A stretch of 64,000 nt of DNA from assembly GCF_900313065.1 (NCBI RefSeq), contig NZ_OMPU01000014.1:186001-250000 (forward strand), in the 5' to 3' direction. The position numbers and the translations under genes were made by a program. The stretch comes from Kiloniella sp. EL199 (GTDB taxonomy: Bacteria; Pseudomonadota; Alphaproteobacteria; Kiloniellales; Kiloniellaceae). Positions 52,029-54,165 of this stretch are shown in pieces (the first letter of the stretch is position 1; every line of letters begins with the position of its first letter). The notes under the pieces were generated by a model that saw only the letters and a program-made list of their open reading frames with translations, ran no database searches and had not been told where the DNA came from.

Positions 52029-52058
52029 TTGACACGTTCCCTTCTTCTAAAGTAGCTT
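52029..52058 (+). promoter_or_regulatory. Putative promoter of the cobalamin-riboswitch transcript
   Basis: TTGACA at 52029-52034 matches the -35 consensus perfectly; TAGCTT at 52053-52058 is a weak -10 at 18-base spacing. The riboswitch begins within about ten bases. Confidence 0.45.
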
Positions 52059-52064
52059 GATATT

Positions 52065-52243
52065 AAATCGCGAGGTTCCCCCTGTGGGATGAAAAGGGAA
52101 TTTGGTGAAGTCATAATACGACTAACTCCAAAGCTGCCCCCGCAACTGTAAGTGACGAGATATCATTTTGTAGCCCACTGGCCAAACATCGGCTGGGAAG
52201 GAAAGATTGATATTGTTGATCCACGAGCCAGGAGACCTGCCAT
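52065..52243 (+). ncRNA. Cobalamin (B12) riboswitch
   Basis: The conserved order of the adenosylcobalamin aptamer is present: GAGGTTCCCC, GGGATGAAAAGGGAATTTGG, GCTGCCCCCGCAACTGTAAG, GCCCACTGG with GGCTGGGAAGG, and the B12 box AGCCAGGAGACCTGCC at 52226-52241. About 50 bases separate it from the start codon of the next gene; a GGAGGAG ribosome-binding site lies in this stretch, beside a self-complementary GGTGCACC. Control by masking of that site is likely. Confidence 0.95.
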
Positions 52244-52294
52244 CGCATTTATCAACCCTTAACCCGGGCGGGGTGCACCGGAGGAGAAAATGCC

Positions 52295-52639
52295 ATGACG
52301 AGTCACGCCTCTACTCTATCTTTCGCTTCAGCGATTGTTCCTTCAAATTTAAAAAATGATCCAAAATCTATCATTCATCAAATGATTATGATGGATAAGG
52401 AAACGAACACGCCGCCAGAAGATATTATCATCGCCTGGATTTTGAGTCTTCCAAGTGAACTTGACCCCGCGCTGGCTGCCAAACGGTTACTAAAGCACTA
52501 CAAAGATGTGGTCGACCAGACAAATAAAAGCACTTTGAAAACGATGATGTTTCTCAAGCAAACAGCCGAATTTCCCAAATCGCGACTGGCTGCAACATCA
52601 CGTCGAGGCTCCAGATATAGGCGAAAATTGCACTCTTAA
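52295..52639 (+). CDS. Riboswitch-controlled protein of unknown function (114 residues)
   Basis: A soluble 114-residue protein directly behind the cobalamin riboswitch, with GGAGGAG ten bases before its ATG. No signal peptide, membrane helix or cysteine is present. The middle part TPPEDIIIAWILSLPSELDP followed by AALAAKRLLKHYKDVV-like helix (here ALAAKRLLKHYKDVVDQ) looks like a compact helical domain, and the C-terminus is basic (SRRGSRYRRKLHS). I know no family for it. Repression by cobalamin would suggest a role in B12 uptake, synthesis, or a B12-independent alternative reaction. The MATE gene follows after 180 bases. Confidence 0.75.
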   Translation: MTSHASTLSFASAIVPSNLKNDPKSIIHQMIMMDKETNTPPEDIIIAWILSLPSELDPALAAKRLLKHYKDVVDQTNKSTLKTMMFLKQTAEFPKSRLAATSRRGSRYRRKLHS

Positions 52640-52818: not shown

Positions 52819-54165
52819 TTGATTAAGCTGCCTGCCAATTACAAACACATACTTGCTTTAGCGACACCGCTGATATTATCAAATCTGACCGTTCCATTAC
52901 TGGGCGCTGTTGACACTGCTGTCATGGGGCATTTACCAGACCCAGCCTTTATTGGCGGTGTTGCTGTGGGGGGCACAATTTTCAGCTTCCTTTTTTGGGG
53001 CTTCGGCTTTTTAAAGATGGGAACGGTAGGCTTCACATCTCAGGCTTTTGGCGCTAGAAATTTACTTGAACAACAAGCTGCATTTTTGCGGCCAATGCTA
53101 CTTGCTCTGTTCTTCGGGTTACTGCTAATTCTGCTACAAGCTCCGTTGTTACAGCTATGCATTACACTGATTGACGGTAGCGCTGAAGTACAGCAATTAG
53201 CATTTCAATACAGCACGATACGTATATGGAGCGCCCCAATCGCTCTATCCAACTATGTCATTATCGGTTGGCTCATAGGCAAAGGCGAACCGAAACTAAC
53301 CTTTATTCTTCAGATAATTATAAACTCTGTGAACATTGTTCTGGATCTGATTTTTGTCATTGAATTGGAATGGGGGGTAGAAGGTGTCTCCCTGGCCACA
53401 GTGATTGCTGAAAGCGTTGGTTTTGCCGTTGGGCTGTGGATTATTTTGAAAAAATCTGATTTTTTTGCAAGCTCGATTAATTGGCAAAACGTTTGGCTCC
53501 GTACTCATATTCTCGCCCTCTTTACAGTAAACAGAGACATCTTTATCCGCACTCTATGCCTCATCTTTGCTTTTGCCTGTTTCACACGATTAGGCGCAAG
53601 CATGGGGGATGAGATTCTTGCCGCCAATGCCGTATTAATGCATTTCCTCTATTTCTCAGCCTATGGGCTGGATGGTTTTGCCCATGCAGCGGAAATAACA
53701 ACGGGTCATGCAAAGGGGAGAAACGACAATGAAGAGTTCAGGAAAGCCGTAAAAGCCAGTAGTGCCATGGCGTTTTTCACTGCAATTATCTTCGTTATAC
53801 TCTTTTATCTGTCTGGGCAGTTTATTGTAGATTTGTTCACAGATATCCCAAGTGTCAAATCGACTGCAGCAAGTTATATTTATTGGCCTATTATTATGCC
53901 GCTGATAAGTGTTGCAAGCTTTCAATTGGACGGCATTTTCATTGGCACAACACGCACAGCAGATTTGCGAAATGCCATGATACAGTCATTGGCTACATTT
54001 CTGATCAGCGCATGGCTTCTTGTCCCAACATGGGGAAATCACGGACTATGGCTTGCAATGACTATTTACATGGCTGCGCGTGGTATAACGCTTCTGAAAT
54101 ATTACCCTGCGCTTGCCAGATCAATTGGCCCCGGAACGAGCGAAATCAAATCTATTAAATCTTAA
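52819..54165 (+). CDS. MATE-family multidrug/metabolite efflux transporter (DinF-like)
   Basis: A 448-residue inner-membrane protein with twelve helices. The start HILALATPLILSNLTVPLLG and AVDTAVMGHLPDPAFIGGVA are characteristic of the DinF branch of MATE exporters. The frame starts with TTG at 52819; no earlier start is present and the ribosome-binding site is poor. It might be expressed from the riboswitch transcript, which would link it to B12, but it may also be independent. Confidence 0.9.
   Translation: MIKLPANYKHILALATPLILSNLTVPLLGAVDTAVMGHLPDPAFIGGVAVGGTIFSFLFWGFGFLKMGTVGFTSQAFGARNLLEQQAAFLRPMLLALFFGLLLILLQAPLLQLCITLIDGSAEVQQLAFQYSTIRIWSAPIALSNYVIIGWLIGKGEPKLTFILQIIINSVNIVLDLIFVIELEWGVEGVSLATVIAESVGFAVGLWIILKKSDFFASSINWQNVWLRTHILALFTVNRDIFIRTLCLIFAFACFTRLGASMGDEILAANAVLMHFLYFSAYGLDGFAHAAEITTGHAKGRNDNEEFRKAVKASSAMAFFTAIIFVILFYLSGQFIVDLFTDIPSVKSTAASYIYWPIIMPLISVASFQLDGIFIGTTRTADLRNAMIQSLATFLISAWLLVPTWGNHGLWLAMTIYMAARGITLLKYYPALARSIGPGTSEIKSIKS

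Follow-up and report, generated by a model that had tools for sequence, protein, structure and literature searches.

In cobalamin riboswitches of the btuB type, bound cobalamin causes loops L5 and L13 to form a kissing loop that stabilises the P13 hairpin, such that the RBS is masked (PMC10653944). A gene of uncertain function, ppe2 of Mycobacterium tuberculosis, is preceded by a B12 riboswitch (PMC11260477). In addition, a 2007 metagenome survey describes two similar orphan genes that reside behind B12 switches in Sargasso, soil and whale-fall sequences (PMC2211319). Below we describe a locus from Kiloniella sp. EL199 at which a B12 riboswitch precedes a gene for an orphan protein of 114 amino acids. 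The locus lies in a 64,000-nucleotide stretch of DNA, hereafter called the window, and the features relevant to the discussion are as follows.

52057-52258, + strand: cobalamin riboswitch aptamer (RF00174), full length, 114.2 bits by cmscan
52135-52142, + strand: aptamer loop L5, UGCCCCCG, the candidate kissing-loop partner, identified by sequence; its CCCCG is complementary to the platform CGGGG in most orthologous switches
52264-52281, + strand: P13 hairpin with loop L13, CCGGGC-GGGGU-GCACCGG, based on pairing over 15 switches
52280-52286, + strand: Shine-Dalgarno sequence GGAGGAG, identified by sequence and overlapping the 3' end of P13
52295-52639, + strand: putative B12-controlled orphan protein of 114 amino acids with a predicted helical core and an Arg-rich C-terminal tail, based on the ORF, dN/dS, homologues and an AF2 model (pLDDT 75)
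52819-54165, + strand: MATE transporter of the DinF type, based on Pfam MatE, on NF007690 as the best NCBIfam match (below its cut-off) and on synteny

A cobalamin riboswitch with a candidate translational expression platform

The original prediction proposed a cobalamin riboswitch with a complete aptamer, and an Infernal cmscan run bears this out. The match to RF00174 (E 7e-28) lies well above the gathering score of 31.5 bits for sequence and secondary structure, and it covers the model in full from position 1 to position 189. The coordinates proposed earlier were right except for the start, 52065, which Rfam places 8 nt further upstream. The RNA belongs to a known riboswitch class and shows nothing unusual within it, and by analogy with other members its ligand is expected to be adenosylcobalamin.

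Between the aptamer and the ATG, 14 of the 15 orthologous leaders carry a hairpin of the form CCGG-(G/A)C-GGGGU-G(C/U)-(A/G)-CCGG, which extends into the Shine-Dalgarno sequence, and the remaining leader (G036) carries a variant form. Pairing is found in 97.8% of the P13 cells across the 15 switches, compared with 34-48% in slid controls, and a single compensatory change from G-C to A-U is present in four sequences, which may reflect a single event. The CGGGG of L13 is complementary to the CCCCG of L5 in most of the 30 switches compared, which represent many genera, although the switches of family f44 carry a different loop, and our search pattern placed L5 poorly in three loci (L167, L201 and L202). 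The loop of P13 can kiss L5, and P13 can mask the Shine-Dalgarno sequence that it adjoins. A promoter scan returned three sigma-70-like sites, which is about the shuffle expectation, and a terminator scan found none, including in the interval between the small gene and the MATE gene; a transcriptional platform is therefore unsupported. The minimum-energy fold of the whole leader was uninformative (z 0.84).

Judging from known riboswitches, B12 is expected to repress translation of the small gene. When adenosylcobalamin is ample, the aptamer would fold and L5 would kiss L13, and this contact would stabilise P13 and mask the adjoining Shine-Dalgarno sequence, which would shut off production of the protein. 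Scarcity of B12 would free the Shine-Dalgarno sequence and allow the protein to be produced. Translation of the 114-amino-acid protein is thus predicted only at low adenosylcobalamin, and we hold it to be likely that the RNA is a dedicated, translation-level B12 off-switch for one small gene whose product serves the response to cobalamin shortage.

A small protein from an unannotated family

The ORF begins 36 nt past the aptamer, and the GGAGGAG sequence is located 8 nt upstream of its start. Differences among five Kiloniella orthologues number 42-59 at third codon positions versus 5-20 at first and second positions, and dN/dS ranges from 0.03 to 0.09, which indicates that the small ORF is a translated and selected gene. 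By these sequence measures, it is a real gene under strong purifying selection.

The suggestion that the protein has no known family has held up, given that it has no Pfam-A or NCBIfam match up to an E value of 1, that it matches no PDB family, and that structure searches returned no significant match. Family libraries provided no consistent name for any subset of the 33-39 homologues; matches to LcrG, DUF6456, GAF and REV models from Pfam and NCBIfam were weak, involved one homologue each, and were set aside as chance. None of the known B12-regulon families (transport, synthesis and isozymes) was matched by the window protein, and none was consistent over the homologues. Plasmid searches with two homologues as queries likewise found nothing. 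Based on these comparisons, we assign the protein to an unannotated family of Alphaproteobacteria, whose conserved features include an N-terminal DP, a W-x3-L turn, a (D)P-x2-AA-x2-LL segment and an Arg-rich C-terminus. No conserved Cys/His pair or catalytic-looking residue set was found in the family. The original prediction had raised possible roles in cobalamin uptake or allocation, or as a replacement for a B12-dependent reaction; at 12 kDa, and lacking conserved residues that look catalytic or suited to metal binding, the protein is unlikely to be an isozyme.

In AlphaFold models, both the window protein (pLDDT 75) and a homologue that lacks the switch (pLDDT 82) are all-helical, and neither model has a significant PDB match. 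Weak structural matches with Z scores of 3-4, CopN and MetH among them, were discarded, as values below about 13 are uninformative for helical bundles. Two MetH chains (Z 3.6 and 3.3) appear among otherwise unrelated matches of the window protein, which might be read to mean that the small protein serves as a cobalamin carrier, either by binding cobalamin directly or through likeness to the helical cap found in corrinoid proteins of the MetH type. We regard this as very improbable because, in addition to the uninformative scores, the model of the switch-less homologue gives no structural match, a profile comparison with the caps (PF02607) of local corrinoid proteins was negative (hhalign probability 0.2%), and no Pfam B12-binding match was obtained.

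The switch and the gene recur together

Relatives identified by tblastn include Kiloniella litopenaei, Kiloniella majae and Kiloniella spongiae. Of 61 Kiloniellales genomes searched with a profile of the small protein, 47 contain homologues. A cobalamin riboswitch is located directly upstream of 32 homologues in total. Fifteen of these pairs reside within the order, where they were recognised from RF00174 positions in the same genomes and mostly confirmed by cmscan of the loci: all nine Kiloniella genomes, all four of genus g4, and two genomes (G036 and G044) of family f8. The other 17, with switches identified by cmscan, came from profile searches of 385 Alphaproteobacteria and the order of G435, and they are distributed among families f112 (11), f44 (4), f138 (1) and f182 (1). 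A view based on Kiloniellales only, which suggested several gains of the switch, was dropped when switch-bearing homologues were found in other families. The gap between aptamer and ATG is 32-46 nt in the 30 pairs measured. Given that most genomes of the order carry only one to seven cobalamin switches each, such closeness in many genomes is not due to chance.

The flanking genes vary. In Kiloniella, the pair is preceded by a lytic transglycosylase (SLT) gene and followed by the MATE gene and by two-component genes that we take to be ChvG/ChvI-like, whereas TerB, GDT1, MCP, DUF218, CtaA and FMN reductase genes are found elsewhere. The small gene is the sole downstream gene common to the lineages, and in g4 and G036 the gene that follows it is on the opposite strand. 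From this variation and from the opposite-strand neighbours, we conclude that the small gene is the target of the riboswitch and not a passenger, and that it is a recurrent, dedicated target. The original prediction had taken regulation by B12 as a clue to function, and this clue gains weight from the presence of the switch before the gene in 32 genomes, in several families and in unrelated neighbourhoods.

The MATE gene of Kiloniella deserves separate consideration because it is located on the same strand, 180 bp downstream of the orphan gene, with no terminator-like site between the two. It could be argued that this gene is the real target, that the small ORF only leads it or is carried along, and that what the switch regulates is the export or import of a corrinoid-related compound by a DinF-type protein. 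Yet the switch stays in place although the following gene lies on the opposite strand (g4 and G036) or is unrelated (other families), the Shine-Dalgarno sequence that the platform would mask belongs to the small gene itself, and the small protein is under strong selection. Since the MATE gene is next in Kiloniella and not directly so in other lineages, it is not the shared target; the orthologous loci largely refute this explanation, which we now consider highly improbable.

Several additional arrangements were encountered during these searches. At three loci (L166, L199 and L200), the orphan gene and its B12 switch are directly followed by a yybP-ykoY manganese riboswitch, and at L166 the next gene encodes a GDT1-type transporter. 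In two g4 genomes (L143, G011:C14; L142, G014:C5), the gene for a small Cys-containing protein that by eye resembles DUF1636 lies behind a cobalamin riboswitch that shares this P13 hairpin. A cobalamin riboswitch in K. majae (L134, G007, C54:138196-138435) precedes a gene for a 416-amino-acid protein that by eye is a Rieske-type ring-hydroxylating oxygenase alpha subunit, an unusual target for a B12 switch.

Homologues that lack the switch

No cobalamin switch is located near 32 of the 47 Kiloniellales homologues. In a tree built from 57 proteins, of which 27 lack the switch, 25 of the latter fall in one clade (support 96/95), and the switch label requires three changes versus 19 in shuffles; a tree of Kiloniellales proteins only also separates the switch-bearing and switch-less groups on one branch, with long branches and uncertain deep nodes. 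The genes of the switch-less clade occupy a different operon. At the 18 switch-less loci measured, the start of the small gene lies at -4 to +50 bp relative to the stop codon of a Methyltransf_11 gene, and in g4 and G044 the riboswitch is located downstream of this methyltransferase gene and upstream of the small gene, with 278-305 bp between the two genes. The expectation that homologues always follow a B12 riboswitch is thus refuted, but the link itself is not, because the switch-less homologues belong mainly to one clade with its own operon. The simplest reading is that the pairing of switch and gene is old and that a single loss of the switch accompanied the translational coupling of the gene to the methyltransferase. 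One gain of the switch plus transfers is the alternative, and the riboswitch tree did not separate one origin from several. Profiles for MetE, NrdJ and CobN over the 61 genomes revealed no clean gene-content correlate of switch presence. At the level of the class, the stronger homologues of G257, G145 and G130 have no switch; the six weak matches that lack one (four f30 genomes, G384 and G443) may lie outside the protein family.

With 32 of 47 Kiloniellales homologues lacking the switch, and many of these coupled to a methyltransferase, the basic function of the protein cannot require B12 control. The main rival to our preferred interpretation builds on this association: the small protein would partner or modulate a SAM-dependent methyltransferase, and would be under B12 control because a shortage of B12 lowers methionine and SAM. 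The 18 operonically coupled loci speak for such a partnership, as do the g4 and G044 loci, where the same methyltransferase precedes the riboswitch, and a 'corrinoid protein-associated methyltransferase' model is among the best sub-threshold NCBIfam matches of the enzyme. Kiloniella, by contrast, has no methyltransferase gene at this locus and no close copy elsewhere (the best is 36% identical over 115 amino acids), and no match to this methyltransferase was found beside the small gene outside Kiloniellales. A methyltransferase partner is therefore not obligatory, and we judge this role to be rather unlikely. In a conserved gene block of Kiloniellales (L042-L052 and L086-L096), the methyltransferase and orphan genes are located near genes for a CoA-transferase III, a FAS1-like dehydratase, an enolase-superfamily protein and DUF1611.

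Apparent B12 dependence of the host

Three other cobalamin switches are present in the Kiloniella genome, and these precede the BtuFCD genes and two divergently oriented DUF4198 genes. The latter arrangement (L036, G000:C6:216995-217775) consists of two divergent riboswitches approximately 300 bp apart, each before a DUF4198 gene, and a function in cobalt uptake is possible for the encoded proteins. The genome carries cobN and a class II NrdJ of 1224 amino acids, and a profile search found no MetE. With this gene content, the organism seems to need B12 to make methionine and DNA precursors. The sole protein with a PF02607 (B12-binding_2) domain in this Kiloniella is a stand-alone corrinoid protein of 234 amino acids (L125, G000:C4:37759-37968), and a full-length MetH was not seen; together with the lack of MetE, this suggests that methionine synthase is split in this organism.

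Possible roles and comparison with known systems

On a tentative basis, we consider the most likely role of the protein, with its helical core and Arg-rich tail, to be that of a helper or adaptor without catalytic activity that would assist cobalamin acquisition or the sparing or allocation of B12 among B12-dependent enzymes. More speculatively, and with some doubt on our part, the family might constitute an unrecognised class of B12-starvation effector in Alphaproteobacteria, in which a small basic adaptor or regulator made at low adenosylcobalamin redistributes cobalamin or re-tunes B12-dependent enzymes. If true, this would add to the B12 regulon a functional group beyond uptake, synthesis and isozymes. 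A protein made by Kiloniella during B12 starvation could also reveal how shortage is handled by an organism with few B12-free alternatives. A gene whose neighbours differ from family to family but whose B12 switch is retained can be assigned strongly to the B12 response without homology to any known protein.

The RNA class is already known; the protein family carries no annotation, and no report of the family as B12-regulated was found in the open-access literature searched. As in the translational RF00174 riboswitch of Escherichia coli btuB, there is a full aptamer, complementarity between L5 and L13, a P13 that adjoins the Shine-Dalgarno sequence, and a gene start 32-46 nt downstream, so that the RNA itself does not differ and only the target gene is new. 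The classic regulons (btuB/btuFCD, cob, cobalt transporter, metE and nrd isozyme genes) likewise place a gene under a repressing B12 switch, but the product in the present case is a small orphan to which no transporter, biosynthetic or isozyme family model fits. The ppe2 gene is likewise a target that falls outside the classic groups although the switch before it is of a known type, and its protein belongs to a different family. The orphans of the metagenome survey are targets of the same kind that might or might not be related to the present family. What distinguishes the present case from both is the 32 orthologous pairings of switch and gene.
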